In this document: piece after piece, positions 153-10,909 of the stretch
Layout: every line of letters begins with the position of its first letter
Position numbering within the stretch: the stretch's first letter is position 1
NCBI GenBank assembly: GCA_020725555.1
Contig: DYEU01000028.1
Coordinates: 1-33,347 of the forward strand
Direction: 5' to 3'
From: Desulfatibacillum sp.
Lineage (GTDB): Bacteria; Desulfobacterota; Desulfobacteria; Desulfobacterales; SpSt-501
Length of the DNA: 33,347 nucleotides
Made by a program: the position numbers and the translations under genes
Notes under the pieces: generated by a model
Told to the model about the DNA's origin: nothing
What the model saw: only the letters and a program-made list of their open reading frames with translations
Database searches by the model: none

Positions 153-512
153 TCAGTGATGCCATGCGGCCAAGATGGGGAAATGTGTCATATCGGCGCT
201 TTCGCCTTGCAGGAAACGGGCCGTGAGCCGTCTCGATATGCAGACGGCCTGGCACACCGGTCTCCAGCCGGGTTTCCTGGAAGTCGGGGATGATGGGTTT
301 GACCGCCTCTCTCCAATGGGTGGCCGGGGAAATTTCCGGACTCGGTATGGCCTTGGCGACCCGAACAGCCGCTTTCAAGCGGAGCCTCTCACGGAGGCGG
401 ATCCGGCCGAGCAGCCGGTGCTGCCCATCCATCCCCCCGTCGCCCAGGTGAGAAAGGGGGCGAGGGGCTGCGGCGTGCGGGCGCGCGCGGGGGGGGTGAG
501 GAGCCGCCGGAG
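153..512. other. Gene-free stretch upstream of nfo
   Basis: About 360 bases separate the partial gene from nfo. Open frames exist on both strands (minus 432-67 and plus 175-516). Neither has a Shine-Dalgarno sequence nor a recognisable domain, and the minus frame runs through the end of the upstream gene. The minus-strand frame has a somewhat protein-like middle (around 190-320), so a decayed gene is possible. The last 15 bases hold the GAGGAG ribosome site of nfo (498-503). Confidence 0.4.
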
Positions 513-1355
513 ATGAAATGCATCGGGGCCCATGTGAGCGCCGCGGGCGGGGTGCAGAACGCGCCGCTCAACGCGGGCCGGATCGGGGCGACCGCCTTCG
601 CCCTGTTCACCAAGAACCAGCGGCAATGGCGGGCCAAGGCGCTTGCCGCAGAGGAGATTCGGGCCTTCCAGGAAAACTGCCGCCGGCAGGGGTTTGGCCC
701 GCGGCAGATCCTCGCCCACGCAAGCTACCTCATCAACCTCGGCCACCCCGACCGGGAGGGGCTCGAGAAGTCGCGCGCAGCCTTGATCGACGAGATGCGA
801 CGTTGCCGCGAACTCGGGCTGCTCGCCCTCAACATCCACCCCGGAAGCCGCCTCGGCCGCATTACCGAGGAGGAATGCCTCTCCCGCATCGCCCGGTCGA
901 TCAGCCTCGCCCTGGAGGAGGTCCCCGAGGTGAGCGTCGTGATCGAAAACACGGCCGGGCAGGGCGGACACGTCGGCCATCGCTTCGAGCACCTCGCCGC
1001 CGTCCTCGAGCGCGTCGCCGATCGCTCGCGGGTTCGGGTCTGCCTCGACACCTGCCACGCCTTCGCCGCGGGATACGACCTGGCGAGCGCCGAGGGCTAT
1101 GCGGAGACGTTGGCCCGCTTCGAGGCGGTGGTGGGGTTTTCCTGTCTCGCGGGACTTCACCTCAACGACAGCCGAAACGCCCTGGGCAGCCGAGTCGACC
1201 GCCATGCCGGCATCGGGCAGGGGGCGCTCGGGCTCGAGGCCTTCCGCCGCATCATGAGGGACCCGCGTTTCGACGGCATCCCCCTCATCCTCGAGACGCC
1301 GGACCCGGACCGCTGGCCCGAGGAGATCCGCCTGCTCCGGGAATTGGCAAAATAG
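513..1355 (+). CDS. nfo: Endonuclease IV (deoxyribonuclease IV, AP endonuclease)
   Basis: This 280-residue protein has the length of the Nfo family (E. coli about 285). Endonuclease IV cuts 5' of abasic sites and clears 3' blocking groups in base-excision repair, using three zinc ions in a TIM barrel. All nine zinc ligands are present at the family positions: H69, H109, E145, D179, H182, H216, D229, H231 and E261, in the motifs NIHPGS, ENTAGQG, LDTCH, HLNDS, DRHAGIG and LETP. The ATG at 513 is supported by GAGGAG at 498-503. The TAG stop at 1353 is formed by the start of a dispersed repeat (1354-1377), so the last codons may have been trimmed by repeat insertion. The N-terminal AHVSAAGG signature is intact. 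The gene appears to stand alone, and identification is secure. Confidence 0.97.
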
Positions 1356-1377
1356 GGGACGTTGATTGTTTTATTGG
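1354..1377 (+). repeat. Dispersed GGGGACGT repeat, solo copy A
   Basis: A 24-base word starting AGGGGACGTTGATTG and ending TTTTATTGG overlaps the nfo stop codon: TAG is 1353-1355 and the repeat begins at 1354. It matches copy B (6405-6428) at 23 of 24 positions. It shares its first eight bases with the inverted-repeat copies at 8202 and 9871. No inverted partner is visible nearby. I infer a REP or MITE-like dispersed element. Confidence 0.7.
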
Positions 1378-1830
1378 CATGTCGCCTCGCCCGCGGCTTG
1401 CGGACGTGCGCGACTTGTGCGAAAAGACCACGATCCGGGCCGCTTCCGGCCAGGGCGCAGCCGAAGATCGGGGGCCTGAGCCCGGCCGGCCGGGTTGTTG
1501 CGATGAAAAGAAACCGCCCCCGGTGCGGCGCGCCGCCTCGCCCCGGGTTTGGCGCCGCAAGGGACCCCGCCTTCAGCGCGTCGGCCGGGGGAGGCCGTGC
1601 CGGCCGGACGTTCGGGCCGGCGGCGGAGGACTTGCGGCTTTCGGCTCTGCAGGCGGCGGGCGCAAGCAGGGGGCGGCTCGGGGACGACGATGGCCCTCAT
1701 GGCGGGGCAAGGCGTGGGCCAAGCCTTCCGGCGGCCTGCGCCTCTTGACCTCCGACACCGGGTGCAAACGGGGCGGCCGCGTGCCTTCGCTGCCAGCGGG
1801 GGGGGCCGCCGGAAGGCCTCAGGGGGGGAT
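1378..1830. other. Gene-free GC-rich stretch before the TRAP operon
   Basis: About 450 bases follow repeat copy A. Several overlapping open frames occur on both strands, but they are Arg/Pro/Ala/Gly-rich, lack Shine-Dalgarno sequences and carry no motif, which is typical of random GC-rich sequence. Only the last ten bases are clearly functional: AGGGGGGG at 1821-1828 serves the cupin gene. I see no convincing promoter for the downstream operon. Confidence 0.5.
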
Positions 1831-2196
1831 ATGGTCATCCAACGCGAAGAGATGAAGCTTGAGCGGCGCGAGCCCTTTGCCGGCGGCAGAGGGGGCGGGA
1901 CGCTCCGCCACGCCATCCCCCCGGGGGCCTCCATTCCCGGCAGCCGCTTCCGCCTGGTCAGCCAGGTGGCGCTCGACCCGGGGGCGGAGATCGGCGAGCA
2001 CGTCCACGCCGACAACGAGGAGATCTACTGGGTGCTCTCCGGCTCAGGGGTCTTCCGGGACGACGGCCGCGAGGTGCCCGCCCGCCCCGGGGATGTGATT
2101 CTCACCCGGCGGGGGCATGCACACGGGTTGCGGAATACGGGCGGCGAACCCCTGGTTTTCCTGGCCGTGGTCGCCGGCGAGCCCGCCCCCGAGTGA
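1831..2196 (+). CDS. Small single-domain cupin protein
   Basis: This 121-residue single-domain cupin covers both conserved motifs. Motif 1 is G-x5-HxH-x3,4-E, seen as GAEIGEHVHADNEE with H57, H59 and E63/E64. Motif 2 is PGDVILTRRGHAHGLRNTG with H98 as the last metal ligand. Small cupins of this kind bind a divalent metal and act as sugar isomerases, small-molecule dioxygenases or ligand sensors; the sequence does not say which. The chosen ATG (1831) has AGGGGGGG just upstream, and longer in-frame starts give low-complexity N-termini. It sits 32 bases before dctP in the same direction, so it may process or sense the solute imported by the TRAP transporter. That link is inference. Confidence 0.85.
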   Translation: MVIQREEMKLERREPFAGGRGGGTLRHAIPPGASIPGSRFRLVSQVALDPGAEIGEHVHADNEEIYWVLSGSGVFRDDGREVPARPGDVILTRRGHAHGLRNTGGEPLVFLAVVAGEPAPE

Positions 2197-4995: not shown

Positions 4996-6402
4996 ATGAA
5001 GGGGTCGGTCGGTCGATTCCGTGCGGCCGCGGGGGATCGCCGGAAGAGCCGATGGGTCCAAGCCGCGCTCGCCATGCTCTCCCCCGTCTTCTTTGCGGCA
5101 GGGCGCCCCCCGTCTTTGCATGCCGCAGAAGAGTGCTGGGCGGCCACCCTGCGCGTGACGGTCGAAGAAACCGCGGCGACCGAGGGGCGAAGCCGAGGGG
5201 AGGCCTACCGCAGCGACCATCGGGCGCGCGCCGCGGGTGAGGTCTCTTTCCTCACCGGCGCCGGCGAGACGGCCGTCGTGCACAAGAGCCTCCAGGGTGC
5301 CTGGGAGGGGACGAGCCACCGGGAGACCTCCTGCGTGGTCTACGAGGGGAAGACGACGGGGACCCTGACGGAAGGGGTGACCCGCGAGGGGAAAACTCAC
5401 ACCGCCTTCTGGGCCCTCACCCTGGAGGGCCGCTCGTCGGTCAAACCCCTGAAGGGGTGCATGCAGGAGCCCATCCCCCCCGTTGCGGGGTCGGAGGAAC
5501 GGGTCGACCCCCGCTTTCACGACATCGTTCACCCGAGCCTCGGCAGGATCGTTTCGCTTTGCAAGCAGGCCCGTTCGTCGCCGGCGCTCGGCGAATGCCG
5601 CACGGCCGAGGGGGAGATCTCGGGCCATCTCACGGAGAGCTCTTCCCGCGCCGGAGAGCGCCCCGAGAAGAAGCCCGGCGGGTCGAGCCACGAGTTCACG
5701 ACCCGCTACGAGTGGTCGGCGAAGCGGGTCCCTTGCGGCTGCGGGGCCGCCGTCGTCCATACCGAGGGAGAGGTGCGGCTGAACGGCCGGCCGGTGGCGG
5801 GCAAGGTCGAGTTCAACCTGAGCGGGGCGGTGCTCGAGACGATCGGCAGGAGCCGGGTCGTGATCGAGACCCCCGAGGGCCTGCAATTGAACCTCGGCCC
5901 CCGAACGCGGATGGATTTGAGCGGCATCTGCCGGGAGATCGAGGAGGAAAAGCAGAAGATCCTCCCCCGGCTCTTCAAGCACCTCAGCGGCAGCTTTTAC
6001 CTCGTCGTGAAAGGCCTGGCCGGAGGCCCCCCCTTCGGCTGGAACCTCAGCGCGGCTTCCGGCATCCGCGGGGAAATCCGGCGCGAGGGGGTTTTGCTGG
6101 CCGGCGCGGGGTGGTTTCCCGGGATGGTCTCGGCCCCCGTTCTGCGGCTTGGGCCGCGGGATGACGGCCAGGGCCCGTCCCTCGACGAGGCCGCGGCCCG
6201 GGAGGCGCAGGCGGTCGTCTTTTGCGACTACCGGCCGGAGGAGGGGGGGCTGCTGATCGAGGTGCTCCGCGGAAGCCTCCGGCTCACCGATTCCGCGGGA
6301 GCCGAGGCCCTCCTCCGGCAGGGGGAGGCGTGGCGCAAGCGCTGGTCGCCCCAGGCCGCCGCCGCGGACTTCAAGACGATCGCGGCCGTGGTGCAATGGT
6401 AA
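4996..6402 (+). CDS. Secreted FecR-like protein of unknown function
   Basis: This 468-residue protein has a long basic N-terminus and a signal-peptide-like segment ending near residue 43 (SLHA before AEECW), so it is probably exported. A central stretch (about 255-315) runs GEVRLNGRPV, ETIGRSRVVIETPEG and LNLGPRTRMDL. This has the repeating beta pattern of FecR-type domains, in which a value is set, tested for polarity and compared. Several cysteines (for example CGCG, and two near residues 110 and 150) may form disulfides. A second beta-rich segment near the end (VLRGSLRLTDSAG, LLRQGEAWRKRWS) repeats the FecR-like theme. The start has AGGAGAGG at 4982-4989. No matching sigma factor or receptor lies nearby, so a signalling role like that of E. 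coli FecR is not supported. Repeat copy B begins two bases after the stop. Confidence 0.75.
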   Translation: MKGSVGRFRAAAGDRRKSRWVQAALAMLSPVFFAAGRPPSLHAAEECWAATLRVTVEETAATEGRSRGEAYRSDHRARAAGEVSFLTGAGETAVVHKSLQGAWEGTSHRETSCVVYEGKTTGTLTEGVTREGKTHTAFWALTLEGRSSVKPLKGCMQEPIPPVAGSEERVDPRFHDIVHPSLGRIVSLCKQARSSPALGECRTAEGEISGHLTESSSRAGERPEKKPGGSSHEFTTRYEWSAKRVPCGCGAAVVHTEGEVRLNGRPVAGKVEFNLSGAVLETIGRSRVVIETPEGLQLNLGPRTRMDLSGICREIEEEKQKILPRLFKHLSGSFYLVVKGLAGGPPFGWNLSAASGIRGEIRREGVLLAGAGWFPGMVSAPVLRLGPRDDGQGPSLDEAAAREAQAVVFCDYRPEEGGLLIEVLRGSLRLTDSAGAEALLRQGEAWRKRWSPQAAAADFKTIAAVVQW

Positions 6403-6404
6403 AA

Positions 6405-6428
6405 AGGGGACGTTCATTGTTTTATTGG
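6405..6428 (+). repeat. Dispersed GGGGACGT repeat, solo copy B
   Basis: This second copy of the 24-base word differs from copy A by one base (GTTCATTG instead of GTTGATTG). It lies immediately after the TAA stop (6400-6402) of the upstream gene and 62 bases before rmuC. The flanks of copies A and B are unrelated, which is what a dispersed element would give. Confidence 0.7.
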
Positions 6429-6490
6429 TTCAGCGGCGCAGGCCCGTCTCCGGCGCCGCAAGGGGCGCGGCGGGTGCCGCGGGGGTGGCG

Positions 6491-8038
6491 ATGAGCTTCT
6501 CCGGGGTGGAACTTCTCCTGGCTGCCGGGCTGGCTGCGGCGATCCTCGGCGTTTTTCTGCTGATTTGGCTTGTTTTGCGCGGGAAAGGTCGCGACGCGGC
6601 AGCCTATGAGAGCGGATTGCGCGCGCTCGAGCAGCAACACGAGCGCCTCGAGCGCATCCTGCGCGAGGAGATGGCCCGGAACCGGGAGGAGGAGGCGGCG
6701 TCCGCTCTGCGGATGCGCCAGGAGTTCGCCGGTGCGATCCGGAATTTCGGGGATGGCCTGCAGCGGCAGCTTGAGCGCCTGGTCCGGGCCCTGGCGGAAA
6801 GGCACGATCTGCTCCGCGGCGTCGTCGAGGAGCGGCTGGCGCGGATGCACCAGGAGGCGGCCGGGGGGCTCGAGCGCCTGCAGGAGGCGTTCTCCGGCGC
6901 AAGCGGCCGCATGCGCGAGGAAACGGGGCTCGCCCTCAAATCCTTCAACGATTCGCTGCTCAAGGCGCTGGCGGCGATGGGCGAACTCCAGAAGGCGGAG
7001 TTTTCGGCGTTCGCAGCCGAGCTCGCCCGGGTTTCCGAGGCGGGCGCGCGGCGGGTCGAGGCCCTCCGGCAGGCGGTCGAGGAGCAGCTCGTCGCCATCC
7101 AGGGGGAAAACCGCAGCCGGCTCGAGGAGATGCGCCGCACCGTGGAGGAAAAACTCGAGGGGACCCTGGAGAAACGCCTGGGCGAGTCCTTCCGGCAGGT
7201 GAGCGAACGGCTGGAGCAAGTGCACCGCGGGCTGGGGGAGATGCACACGCTCGCCGCCGGTGTGGGGGACCTGAAGCGGATGCTCGCCAACGTGAAGACC
7301 CGCGGGACGTGGGGCGAGGTCCAGCTCGGGGCGATGCTGGCCGAGGTGCTTTCTCCGGAGCAGGTGGCCGAGAACGTCGCCACCCGGGAAGGGGGCGAGC
7401 GGGTGGAGTTCGCGGTCCGGCTGCCGGGGCGCGGGGAGGGGGAGAAGCCGGTGCTGCTGCCGATCGACGCGAAATTTCCCCTCGAAGACTACCTGCGATT
7501 GACGGACGCGCAGGAGCGCGCGGATCCCCCCGCGGTGGAGGAGGCCTCGCGCGGCTTGGAGGCGCGCATCCGGCAGTGTGCCGCCGACATCGCGCGCAAG
7601 TACCTGAACCCGCCGCGGACGACCGATTTTGCGATCCTTTTTTTGCCGACCGAGGGCCTCTTCGCCGAGGTCCTCCGCCGGCCCGGCCTTGCCGAGTCGA
7701 TCCAGAGGGCGAACCGGGTGGTCATCGCCGGCCCCACGACCCTCTGGTCCATTCTCACCAGCCTTCAGGTCGGGTTCCGCACGCTGGCCATCCAGAAACG
7801 CTCAAGCGAGGTTTGGAGGCTTCTGGCCGCGGTCAAGGCCGAGTGGGGTCGCTACGGGGAGATCCTGCAACGGGTGCAGAAGAAGCTGCACGAGGCCTCG
7901 AGCACGATCGAGCAGGCCGAGCGGCGAACCCGGGCGATCGGCAGCCGGCTGCGGGAAGTCGAGGAGCTGCCGGAGGCCGAGGCGCAGGGGCTGCTCGGGC
8001 TTGAAGCCCGTGATGCCCCGGATAATCACGAGCGGTAG
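6491..8038 (+). CDS. rmuC: RmuC family DNA recombination protein
   Basis: This 515-residue protein has the RmuC layout. Residues 6-29 form one membrane-spanning helix, about 35-255 is a long Glu/Arg/Leu-rich coiled coil, and the RmuC nuclease-like domain follows at about 255-480. Conserved stretches include GTWGEVQLGAMLAEVL, PIDAKFPLEDYLRL, FLPTEGLFAEVLRRP, GPTTLWSILTSLQVG and LAIQKRSSEVW. E. coli RmuC limits inversion of short inverted repeats, and the fold resembles restriction endonucleases. The start is placed at ATG 6491, right before the hydrophobic helix. A longer frame from 6425 runs into repeat copy B and adds a low-complexity leader. The Shine-Dalgarno sequence is weak (GGGGGTGG). 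The presence of a repeat-stability gene next to inverted repeats is noted but may be chance. Confidence 0.95.
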   Translation: MSFSGVELLLAAGLAAAILGVFLLIWLVLRGKGRDAAAYESGLRALEQQHERLERILREEMARNREEEAASALRMRQEFAGAIRNFGDGLQRQLERLVRALAERHDLLRGVVEERLARMHQEAAGGLERLQEAFSGASGRMREETGLALKSFNDSLLKALAAMGELQKAEFSAFAAELARVSEAGARRVEALRQAVEEQLVAIQGENRSRLEEMRRTVEEKLEGTLEKRLGESFRQVSERLEQVHRGLGEMHTLAAGVGDLKRMLANVKTRGTWGEVQLGAMLAEVLSPEQVAENVATREGGERVEFAVRLPGRGEGEKPVLLPIDAKFPLEDYLRLTDAQERADPPAVEEASRGLEARIRQCAADIARKYLNPPRTTDFAILFLPTEGLFAEVLRRPGLAESIQRANRVVIAGPTTLWSILTSLQVGFRTLAIQKRSSEVWRLLAAVKAEWGRYGEILQRVQKKLHEASSTIEQAERRTRAIGSRLREVEELPEAEAQGLLGLEARDAPDNHER

Positions 8039-8357
8039 CGGCTCCAGGACGAAACCCGCGCGGGGGGACGGGTTCGGCAAGCCCCCCCCATGATTCCTTC
8101 CGCCCGGTCGTCGACCCGGACGGCCACCCCCTGTTCGTCAGCCTCGGCTGCGCTGCGGAAACCCCGATGCTTGCGGCGAAGGACAATTAGGGGACGCAAT
8201 TAGGGGACGTCCATTTAGATATCATTTGATGCCGCATAATGATATGCAAATGGACGTCCCCTCCCCTGATTGGGGCTTGATCCGGGTGGCCGGCATCCGG
8301 TAAGCTGGTCCCGTCCACGCCGTCGTTCCCCTGCAACCTCCGGCCCGGAGGTGCGCC
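8039..8357. other. Gene-free stretch with repeat copy C and a short coding-like fragment
   Basis: About 320 bases lie between rmuC and the next gene. At 8089-8190 one frame reads like genuine protein (FRPVVDPDGHPLFVSLG, then a CAAETPMLAAKDN end). It stops at a TAG contributed by the repeat at 8184. It has no start codon or ribosome site, so it may be a gene relic. Repeat copy C fills 8184-8272. GGAG at 8347-8350 serves the downstream gene. Confidence 0.45.
8184..8272. repeat. Inverted repeat element, copy C (composite)
   Basis: The core is a 24-base left arm (8202-8225, AGGGGACGTCCATTTAGAT...) and a 24-base right arm (8239-8262, ...GCAAATGGACGTCCCCT) that are near-perfect inverted repeats around a 13-base spacer. 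The left side carries an exact tandem duplication of CAATTAGGGGACG (8184-8196 and 8197-8209). The right side continues into CCCCTGATTG (8263-8272), which matches the complement of the same word with one change. As RNA or cruciform it would make a long hairpin. It resembles REP/MITE elements; the mobilising enzyme is not in the window. Confidence 0.85.
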
Positions 8358-9869
8358 ATGACCCGCTTTTCCGGCACCCGCCGATATCTCCTTTCTTGTG
8401 TCTGGTTTCTCGCCGCCCTGGCCGCAGGCCCGGGAGAACCCTTCGCCCAGGCCCCGCCGCCCACAGGGGGCGCGCCGCCCCCCGGGATGCGCAAGGTCGT
8501 CACCGAGAAGGCCGGTTTCGTCGTCTATGTGCCGGAAGGGTGGAAGGCGGTCGAGGGCGCCGAGGAGGACGCCCGCTTCATCTCCGCCTCCGACCCCGCC
8601 GGCCGCCTGGAGGCGGTGCTCGTGATCGGCACCGCACCTTTTCGGGGCGATGCGGTCGGCGCGGCGCGGGTCGTCCTCGAGCGGGCCGGGCGCCGTTACC
8701 CCGATCTGCAGATCGCCAACGCCCGGGTCACCCCCGACCATCGCCGGGTGGTCTTCGACGGCGCCTACTCGCACCCCCAGAAGGGCCGCCGCGAATTCCG
8801 CTTCTGGGTCGGCGTGGACCAGGCCGTCGTGACCTGCTCGCGGGTTGAGACGCCGGCCGGTCGGCTGGACGCCGAAAAGGCGCTGCTCCTGACGGTTCTC
8901 GCCAACATCCGGGTGCTGAAAGGGGCTTTCGACGCCGGCGATGCCGCGCAGGCCCTGCCGCTCGTTTCCTACCGACTGCGTGACGGCTCGGCCTCCTTTC
9001 AGATGCCGCAGGGCTGGAAATGCCAGGACTTCGGCAAAGGCGCCTTCATCGCCAGCGACGCCGGGGACACGTCGAGCTTCTCGGTCGGCGGGGCCGAGGT
9101 CCTCTCCCCGCAGCTGGGGGTGCGGGTCCCGGGGGCGGTGGTGGCCCCCTACATGCCGCCCCACCAGGCCTGGCGGCTTTTGACCGAGCAGACCGGGCTG
9201 GTTTCACGCCTGCAGTTCGAGAAGGTCATCCCGCGGCAGGACATGGTTCAGGAGATGGCTCGCGGCGGCTATACGGCGGGGCCGGTCGCGGTGGAGGAGC
9301 TGATCTACACCTGCGATGTCAAGGGCAGGCGATGCAAGGGCTACACCCTCGGGTTTTCTTTCGGCAGCCGGCTCGGCCACAGCTGGACCTTTCGGCACCT
9401 CACGGTGGGGGCGCCGGTCGACCGCTTCGACCGGATGGTCCCCACCTTTACCGCCATGCTCCAATCCTTCCGCTTCAACGAACAGTGGATGGCGAACTAC
9501 ATCGCCCAGGGCACCCGTCGCCTGCGGGAGCTTCAGCAGCAAACGGCCTCCATGGTCAGCCGCAATGCCGAGGAGATCCGCCGCACGATGCAGGCCGCCT
9601 ACGACGAGCGGCAGCGCAGCATGGACTACATCGACTACCAGCGGACAAACACCATCCGCGGGCAGCAGGATTGGGTTTCCTCCATGGAAGGCGGGACCGT
9701 CTATCGGACCGACCGCTGGGGCACCCGGAACACCACCACCGGCGAATCCTGGGAGGGGCAGCCCTACGACTATGTCCATTTCAAGGGCAAAAACCCCAAA
9801 TACAATGAAGAGATGACCCCGATCGACAGCCGGGCCCTCTGGGAGCGCCACATCCGCAAGCCAAACTAG
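8358..9869 (+). CDS. Secreted protein with duplicated PsbP/DUF1795-like domain
   Basis: This 503-residue protein has a signal peptide (residues 1-31, cleavage near PFAQ) followed by a Pro-rich linker. Two similar modules follow. The first starts near residue 52 (GFVVYVPEGWK, then ARFISASDPAGRLEAV) and the second near 211 (SASFQMPQGWK, then GAFIASDAGDTSSF). That looks like an internal duplication of a small alpha/beta domain of the PsbP or DUF1795 kind. The C-terminal 120 residues are helical then turn-rich, with YRTDRWGTRNTTTGESWEG and FKGKNPKYNEEM. I know this tail only as a recurring segment of secreted bacterial proteins. GGAG at 8347-8350 supports ATG 8358. The TAG stop (9867-9869) overlaps the left end of repeat copy D. 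Function is unknown; the cell envelope or exterior is the likely site. Confidence 0.8.
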   Translation: MTRFSGTRRYLLSCVWFLAALAAGPGEPFAQAPPPTGGAPPPGMRKVVTEKAGFVVYVPEGWKAVEGAEEDARFISASDPAGRLEAVLVIGTAPFRGDAVGAARVVLERAGRRYPDLQIANARVTPDHRRVVFDGAYSHPQKGRREFRFWVGVDQAVVTCSRVETPAGRLDAEKALLLTVLANIRVLKGAFDAGDAAQALPLVSYRLRDGSASFQMPQGWKCQDFGKGAFIASDAGDTSSFSVGGAEVLSPQLGVRVPGAVVAPYMPPHQAWRLLTEQTGLVSRLQFEKVIPRQDMVQEMARGGYTAGPVAVEELIYTCDVKGRRCKGYTLGFSFGSRLGHSWTFRHLTVGAPVDRFDRMVPTFTAMLQSFRFNEQWMANYIAQGTRRLRELQQQTASMVSRNAEEIRRTMQAAYDERQRSMDYIDYQRTNTIRGQQDWVSSMEGGTVYRTDRWGTRNTTTGESWEGQPYDYVHFKGKNPKYNEEMTPIDSRALWERHIRKPN

Positions 9870-9992
9870 AGGGGACGTCCATTCAGATATTCGTTGGAGG
9901 CGCGATTTCGACCCTCCATACGGGCAGCGGCACGTTCTTGGCATGCCTGCAAGGGGGGGGCTATAATGATATAAGAATGGACGTCCCCTCTA
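9867..9992. repeat. Inverted repeat element, copy D, spanning two convergent stop codons
   Basis: The left arm (9867-9889, TAGAGGGGACGTCCATTC...) and right arm (about 9970-9992, complement TAGAGGGGACGTCCATTC...) are inverted repeats around a spacer of about 80 bases that has no gene. The first three bases of each arm are the TAG stop codons of the two convergent genes (9867-9869 plus, 9990-9992 minus). The element therefore fills the whole intergenic space and may also terminate transcription from both sides. Confidence 0.85.
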
Positions 9993-10427
9993 TGCGAGGG
10001 AGGAATTGAAGTAGCGCGGGTCGCCGGTCACTTCGGGGCCGAGCCAGGGGGGGCGGGGGAACTCCTCGTCCGGCCGGGAGAGCTCGATCTCGGCGAGGAC
10101 GAGGCCCGCGTGGCGGCCGTGGAACTCGTCGATCTCCCAGCGGAAGCCCCCGAAGAGGACCACGTGGCGGGTTTTTTCGAGGATCGTGCCCTCGCAGAGA
10201 CGCAGAAGCGCCTCGGCCTCCGCGGCCGGGATCTCGTATTCGAACTCGGCGCGGACCGCCCCGGTGGTGGGCCCCTTGACGGCGAGAAAGGCGCGCTCGC
10301 CGGCGAGGCGCACGCGCACGGTGCGCTCGGGGGCCCGGTTGAGGTAGCCCTGGCGCAGCCGCAGCCCTTCACCGGTGCGCCAGCCGTCCCCCGCCACCAG
10401 GAATTTGCGCTCGATTTCGGTCCCCAT
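9990..10427 (-). CDS. CYTH domain protein (short-chain triphosphatase-like)
   Basis: This 145-residue protein opens with the CYTH signature ExExK (MGTEIERKFL; E4, E6, K8). It continues with the alternating basic and acidic strands that line the triphosphate tunnel (LRLRQGYL, TVRVRL, FLAVKGP, EFEYEIP, WEIDEFHG, LVLAEIEL). Stand-alone bacterial CYTH proteins of this size usually hydrolyse inorganic triphosphate or bind nucleotides with a metal ion. The family end GDPRYFNSSLA is present and is followed directly by a TAG made from repeat copy D, so a few terminal residues may be missing. ATG 10427 is preceded by a GGGGGGAGAG-type site. It is 29 bases downstream of the thioesterase gene and is probably cotranscribed with it. 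Confidence 0.9.
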   Translation of the reverse strand: MGTEIERKFLVAGDGWRTGEGLRLRQGYLNRAPERTVRVRLAGERAFLAVKGPTTGAVRAEFEYEIPAAEAEALLRLCEGTILEKTRHVVLFGGFRWEIDEFHGRHAGLVLAEIELSRPDEEFPRPPWLGPEVTGDPRYFNSSLA

Positions 10428-10456
10428 GGCGGACTCTCCCCCCCTCGCCGCAGGAG

Positions 10457-10909
10457 CTACTCCGGGCGGCGCTTCTTGCCCCCGAGCAGCATGTAGGTCA
10501 CCTGGGCCACGGCGACGAGGGTTCCCGCGTCGTCGAAGAGCTCGACCGCCACCGGGCACAGGGTACGGCCGAACTTGATCACGTGCGCCCGGGCGGTCAC
10601 GTCGGTCAGGCAGGGGGCGAGGAAGCGGATGTTCATGTCGGTCGTCGTGAGCCGGGTGTCGGCGCCGGTGCGCGTGAGGATCGCAAAGCAGGCGATGCTG
10701 TCGGCCACGGTCATGAGAAGCCCCCCGTGGAAGGACTCGTAGATCCCGTCCCAGGCCCGTTTCCGCGGCACCCGGGCCTCACAGCAGCCGTCGGCGAAAT
10801 GAAGGATCTCCATCTGGAGCGTATCCACGATGGGGATGCGCCGGATCCGCTCCAGGAGCTGATCCGGCGGGACCTTCGCCGAAGGCGCCTGGCGGCATTT
10901 CCCTTCCAT
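10457..10909 (-). CDS. PaaI-type hotdog-fold thioesterase
   Basis: This 150-residue protein has the hotdog-fold thioesterase layout. The PaaI signature HGGLLMTVADSIACFA (H61-G62-G63 and the active-site acid D70) is followed by TTDMNIRFLAPCLTDVTARAHVIKFGRTL and a final strand VAVAQVTYMLL. Members hydrolyse acyl-CoA thioesters, often aromatic or medium-chain; the substrate here is unknown. GGGAGGGGG lies about eight bases before ATG 10909. It leads a two-gene unit with the CYTH protein. A TTGACA box at 11006-11011 (minus) offers a promoter about 65 bases upstream of the gene. Confidence 0.9.
   Translation of the reverse strand: MEGKCRQAPSAKVPPDQLLERIRRIPIVDTLQMEILHFADGCCEARVPRKRAWDGIYESFHGGLLMTVADSIACFAILTRTGADTRLTTTDMNIRFLAPCLTDVTARAHVIKFGRTLCPVAVELFDDAGTLVAVAQVTYMLLGGKKRRPE

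Follow-up and report, generated by a model that had tools for sequence, protein, structure and literature searches.

The described systems closest to the repeat analyzed here are TIRYT/TIRtron elements, GTAG REPs and REPINs. The TIRYT/TIRtron architecture was named by Di Nocera et al. 2013 (PMC3733652), and a later survey, in its treatment of these elements, places TIRYT mainly in Y1 subclass 2.1 (PMC6006769). As far as the relevant portion of the 2013 paper describes them, the motif GGGGWSAS is common to some, though not all, of the published TIRs and hence is not defining. Portions of the same paper describe how GTAG REPs, through their termini, often supply flanking ORFs with a TAG stop, and put forward the hypothesis that REPs protect RNA ends (PMC3733652). 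Against this background, we examined an inverted repeat that separates two convergent genes, one for a predicted secreted protein of 503 residues and one for a CYTH-domain protein. We consider it probable that this element is a dimer of TIR units matching the ends of a resident Y1 (HUH) transposase gene, that it is REPIN-like, non-autonomous and of the TIRYT/TIRtron kind, and that its insertion shortened the CYTH protein.

The repeat family and the associated transposase gene

Within the window, meaning the whole analyzed stretch of 33,347 nucleotides, the initial annotation had placed one inverted-repeat element at 9867-9992, supplying the TAG stop codons of both convergent genes. Such a repeat is real, with arms of 24 nt each at 9867-9890 and 9969-9992, 92% complementary and spaced 78 nt apart. 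Its core, AGGGGACGTCCATT, occurs in 42 copies in the 3.59-Mb genome to which the window belongs (G000) and in 36 copies in a genome of the same genus (G003), with 0 copies of the reversed control in both, and the element folds far better than shuffled sequences on both strands (z of -7.7 and -7.1). The two TAG codons are indeed the stops of the two genes; the family boundaries of the arms, set from the genome-wide comparison, are those given in Table 1. The string AGGGGACGTCC is found 46 times in the own genome as compared with 10 for its reversed control, and a listing of all 46 sites yields the unit as AGGGGACGTCCATT, three variable bases, and then ATATCA or [AT]TATTGG in most. The variable bases, arm positions 15-17, form a three-base stretch between two conserved blocks that differs freely among arms and also among orthologous arms. 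A link between this triplet and the flanking bases was considered, and none was seen by eye, which is not a statistical test. Immediately upstream of the unit C-A-A-[AT]-T is preferred, and the base next to AGGGG is T in 54 of 77 arms (42 of the 42 exact cores of G000 and 35 of the 36 of G003, one on contig 6 having been left out).

Table 1. Features of the window that bear on the repeat family
Feature	Position	Strand	Remark
Diverged single arm AGGGGACGTTGATT	1354..1379	+	T/AG junction (1353-1355) is the stop of an AP-endonuclease-2-domain gene, 513-1355
Diverged single arm AGGGGACGTTCATT	6405..6430	+	2 nt past the TAA stop of ORF 4996-6402 (no Pfam match)
Second copy, 61-bp dimer of the same arms	8202..8262		Downstream of rmuC; left arm follows a 13-bp tandem duplication, CAATTAGGGGACG
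503-aa predicted secreted protein	8358..9869	+	Secretion called by eye in the initial annotation; no Pfam or NCBIfam match
TAG stop of the 503-aa gene	9867..9869	+	Directly outside the left arm, outside the family consensus
Left arm	9870..9893	+	Core AGGGGACGTCCATT (9870-9883), variable triplet CAG, then ATATTCG
Spacer between the arms	9894..9965		
Right arm	9966..9989	-	Core AGGGGACGTCCATT (9989-9976 on the minus strand), variable triplet CTT, then ATATCAT
TAG stop of the CYTH gene	9990..9992	-	Directly outside the right arm
CYTH-domain protein, 145 aa from ATG	9990..10427	-	Pfam CYTH, 40.5 bits; C-terminus ...GDPRYFNSSLA, then stop

The exact core is present in five of 58 genomes, the own genome included; apart from G000 and G003, three genomes carry two or three copies. 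In G000 the units are dispersed singly and as dimers, for example at 8202/8262 and 9870/9989 of the window and at 49714/49774 of contig C30, the dimer at 9870/9989 spanning 120 bp and the others 61 bp. Dimers are predicted to fold as one hairpin (5 dimers folded in 8 runs gave z between -7.1 and -9.7). An Rfam family was sought as an identity for the repeat and rejected, since there were only two matches, one of the 8202 dimer to a miRNA model and one at 10366 to a CRISPR repeat model, and neither reached the gathering score. Among the papers listed by literature searches on such repeats, none was seen to describe this arm. On contig C15 of G000 (109000-124000), five single arms share the same orientation, and near several of them the alignment with G003 jumps to other contigs or distant places. 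A promoter-like TTGGCA-18-TATAAT (11/12) at 9938-9967, running from the spacer into the right arm, is directed into CYTH antisense; shuffles of the region gave a mean of 0.2 promoter-like matches.

Copies of the family also lie at the ends of a transposase gene. In G000 (locus L062), a 335-aa Y1 transposase ORF at 856-1863(-) is accompanied by an exact arm at 831(+) and, upstream of the ORF, by diverged arms at 2091(-) and 2144(-) with 3 and 2 mismatches, respectively. In G003 (L115), the orthologous ORF at 210-1217(+), 86% identical, is accompanied by exact arms at 99(+), 152(+) and 1242(-). The outer end of the downstream arm lies 25 nt after the Y1 stop in both genomes. The protein matches the Pfam profile Y1_Tnp at 35.6 bits; its match to REP_Tyr_transpos of NCBIfam (66.8 bits) is below the 80-bit cut-off, its match to Bac_DnaA_C is weak (20.7 bits, E of 4e-4, below the 31.5-bit cut-off), and solved structures, when searched by sequence, yielded no more than two matches, both weak and both to an electron transfer flavoprotein. 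Fourteen transposase loci from named genomes were compared, 13 titled as Desulfobacterales or other Deltaproteobacteria groups and one as Cellvibrionales: three carry this core or the TGGGGACGTCCATT form (L124, taken as G003, L128 and L135), three carry a related end, GGGGACGGGTATT (L125, L126 and L134), and in eight, several of them partial, neither was recognized. In L128 and L135 the Y1 gene is partial, lies at a contig end and adjoins TGGGGACGTCCATT.

Stop codons, folding and conservation at the arms

Coding frames were scored upstream of the 77 arms. Genes read towards 38 of these, while the best frame is antisense at 29 and weak at 10. Among the 38 genes reading in, 19 stop at the junction itself as T/AG, the flank contributing the T and the arm the AG, so that 19 of the 54 arms preceded by T make the stop of a gene; five more stop 2-5 nt before the arm, nine stop further upstream and five read through. 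With the same method and the same DNA, gene stops coincide with 46 of 1777 other TAGs and with 14 of 544 TAGG sites outside arms, and among 4000 random positions only 2 hit such a stop. When the 24 genes that are open up to the junction are considered, 19 are in the TAG frame against one third expected (P = 5e-6), and the excess recurs in G000 alone (8/10), in G003 alone (11/14) and after orthologues were merged by hand (14/18, P = 1e-4). It follows either that insertion favors stop codons or that insertions in a harmless frame are kept. The CYTH gene is outside the 38, because the codon score favored the antisense frame in both species.

Tandem duplications of 13-16 bp, comprising flank and first arm bases, precede eight of the 42 G000 arms, two of them with one mismatch (window 8188-8212, and also L040, L043, L046, L048 and L049); such duplications were found at 14 of 3000 random window positions and before 0 of 35 G003 arms. 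These may have been left by cutting or repair close to the arm. At another place, the G003 counterpart of the AP-endonuclease-2 gene (L107, ~2333-2342) ends with TAGGGGACG followed by unrelated sequence, and the window has at this point (1353-1361) a longer diverged arm. The idea that lone AGGGGACG stubs are common excision scars found no support, as TAGGGGACG has 66 copies compared with 115 for the reversed control. Of 30 among these 66 places that were examined, 13 are neither in nor directly before an arm, and all 13 are antisense to genes.

A further proposal of the initial annotation, that the element may serve as a bidirectional terminator, found no support as regards an intrinsic terminator. 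The hairpin is strong, but a simple consensus scan of 8000-10600 gave 0 terminator-like sites, with a loop limit of 3-8 nt that would miss a stem with this spacer, and no T run was seen by eye after the stem; because no T run follows the hairpin, we do not call it an intrinsic terminator. The hairpin may plausibly influence both transcripts at their 3' ends, and protection of RNA ends, by analogy with the role hypothesized for REPs, is possible.

The arms could also be a functional element kept by selection, such as a transcript end signal or a protein-binding site, in which case the stops would be a by-product of placement close to genes. In addition to the strong folding on both strands, this is suggested by 24 orthologous arm pairs of G000 and G003 (two G003 arms being used twice, and arms with up to 3 mismatches included), in which 330 of 336 core positions (98%) are identical as opposed to 28 of 72 in the triplet (39%) and 105 of 288 in the loop (36%), the flanks being ~83% identical. 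However, the conservation figures are biased upward, in that the search for arms relied on their resemblance to the consensus and exact matches guided the choice of many G003 stretches, and because the search favors conserved cores the core identity is suggestive only. The missing T-run terminator further detracts from selection as the main explanation, as do the copies flanking the transposase gene and the absence of at least one G000 arm from its aligned intergenic site in G003. A clean empty site was not found, the boundary of the one absent copy that was aligned (L046, 11299) being ill-defined. We regard selection for arm function as a possibility to be held tentatively.

The ends of the two flanking genes

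According to the initial annotation, the insertion had replaced the natural termini of both genes. The 503-aa gene argues otherwise. Its homologue in genome G165, 51% identical, ends ...SRELWERHAR followed by its own TAG, three residues earlier than the ...SRALWERHIRKPN that precedes TAG here, and the 4.4 kb around that homologue contain nothing of the core beyond a 10-mer that has one mismatch, lacks ATT and does not lie at the gene end. A homologue in G004, 30% identical, is also not longer and ends ~4 residues earlier. Because the G165 homologue is not longer than the 503-aa protein, and likewise ends with TAG, nothing appears to have been lost, and judging from these sequences the gene appears to keep a natural-looking end.

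In the syntenic G003 no relative of the 503-aa protein was found at the threshold used. Between the same rmuC and CYTH neighbors, G003 has instead an alpha-amylase-family gene with dimers of 63 and 61 bp on its sides. As the G003 interval holds an unrelated gene, the gene between the two dimers has been exchanged, and we infer that this exchange used the repeats. Elsewhere, a methyltransferase-domain gene (L043, 1276-2309) and a Rieske-domain gene (L046, 2464-3248) each lie beside a G000 arm and are missing at the aligned G003 sites. A more ambitious reading would make the transposase repeats gene-end modules, which settle on the stops of facing genes, have their core under selection across species and allow cassette-like swapping of the genes between dimers. 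If true, this would be a system for exchanging genes at conserved ends, although we consider it unlikely.

For the CYTH gene, by comparison, the early end and the replacement of the natural terminus are upheld. Seven orthologues with intact frames (from G027, G031, G022, G043, G042, G040 and G008, whose genomes gave no match to the exact core; G015, with an interrupted frame, and a second G040 entry were left out) continue for 7-11 residues past the C-terminus of the window protein, and six of the seven end in an NxNLxxxP/S[YF]xxW-type tail, one of these longer ends being ...NSNLVQNPYLKW. In G003, where an element occupies the same place, the CYTH protein ends ...YFNSTLQGTSILISLYSS, its last 12 residues being read from the element with the first codon across the junction, such that ...NSTL is followed by QGTSILISLYSS from its own element.

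The full form of the earlier proposal, in which both natural termini were replaced and the TAG stops belong to the element, is very improbable. It draws on the TAG that precedes both arms and on the shortened CYTH protein. However, the sequence shared by the family starts at AGGGG, and TAG is found right before the core in only two of the 42 exact arms, both in this element, which places the TAGs in the flanks and outside the family unit; the CYTH arm of G003 is without TAG and is read through; and the 503-aa homologue in G165 stops earlier with a TAG of its own. The TAG common to both arms at this locus may reflect a longer local repeat end (TAGAGGGG).

General truncation of proteins by arms was also considered, and found no support, as family models reach or come near their last position in four proteins that end at arms: a DctM protein and a PHA-depolymerase-like protein, whose matches do not reach the NCBIfam cut-off, as well as the AP-endonuclease-2 protein and an alpha/beta hydrolase. 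Possible shortening is seen in a protein ending at L118 2818, in which the NCBIfam model stops at 667 of 759. A second mild shortening concerns a histone-deacetylase-like protein of G003, which ends WALPQI at the arm. All six relatives exceed it by 1-8 residues; one of them is the G000 copy, which has no arm immediately next to it, and the other five come from genomes that lack the exact core.

Origin of the element and comparison with known systems

That the element is a MITE moved by a DDE transposase, the Y1 gene adjoining by coincidence, would suit the inverted-repeat architecture of 120 bp here and 61 bp elsewhere, with target duplication established neither way, but it is highly unlikely in view of the orthologous Y1 genes of G000 and G003 both lying between inverted arms with the same downstream spacing, and of the partial Y1 genes beside TGGGGACGTCCATT in L128 and L135. 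Under the preferred reading of a TIR-unit dimer linked to the Y1 gene, the transposase would move the units, and a dimer copy would have inserted where the CYTH gene ends, probably while the window species and G003 were still one lineage. The core, the triplet and the next four bases of the right arm are identical in the G003 counterpart, and a right arm shared down to its variable triplet suggests one ancestral insertion; the left arms and spacers of the two elements differ. This insertion would have replaced the last few CYTH residues, with TAG in the window lineage now coming to lie directly before the arm.

Taken as such, the locus provides a well-resolved case, with a close genome for comparison, of transposase-linked repeats that rest on stop codons and in some instances shorten proteins. 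Because the core has stayed constant and the triplet and loop have not, it can also serve as a natural test between tolerated debris and gene-end signals that are kept.

The family resembles TIRYT/TIRtron elements, as portrayed in parts of the two papers, in having a Y1 gene between inverted repeats with the repeats found elsewhere as single copies and dimers, and in the GGGGAC start (PMC3733652). The C-terminal helix-turn-helix (Bac_DnaA_C) domain of subclass 2.1 (PMC6006769) may have a counterpart here in the weak Bac_DnaA_C match below the cut-off. When the motif here, GGGGACGT, is set against the GGGGWSAS given for TIRYT in the portion of PMC3733652 that treats it, GGGGWS fits and the last two letters do not. 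Unlike in TIRYT/TIRtron, the host here is probably a member of the Desulfobacterota, the arm ends lie often on stop codons and many positions are common to two species. With REPINs, as outlined in part of PMC3116915, the element shares two inverted conserved 14-16-mers, a variable spacer, folding as one hairpin and the link to a RAYT gene. It differs from them in that a single arm has only the short GGACGTCC palindrome, and in copy number, with ~40 exact arms here as compared with the >1000 16-mers that the same part of that paper gives for its P. fluorescens genome (PMC3116915). GTAG REPs, in the account given in sections of PMC3733652, are similar in that the end of the repeat gives neighbors a TAG, that the repeats lie mostly downstream of genes and that dimers occur. 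However, the arm consensus here contains no GTAG and, by eye, a single arm has no palindrome beyond GGACGTCC; moreover, the stop is composed of a flanking T and the AG of the repeat, and in the present element TAG lies wholly outside the repeat. The supply of stops by repeat ends is thus already reported for GTAG REPs, and is here counted for a TIR family.
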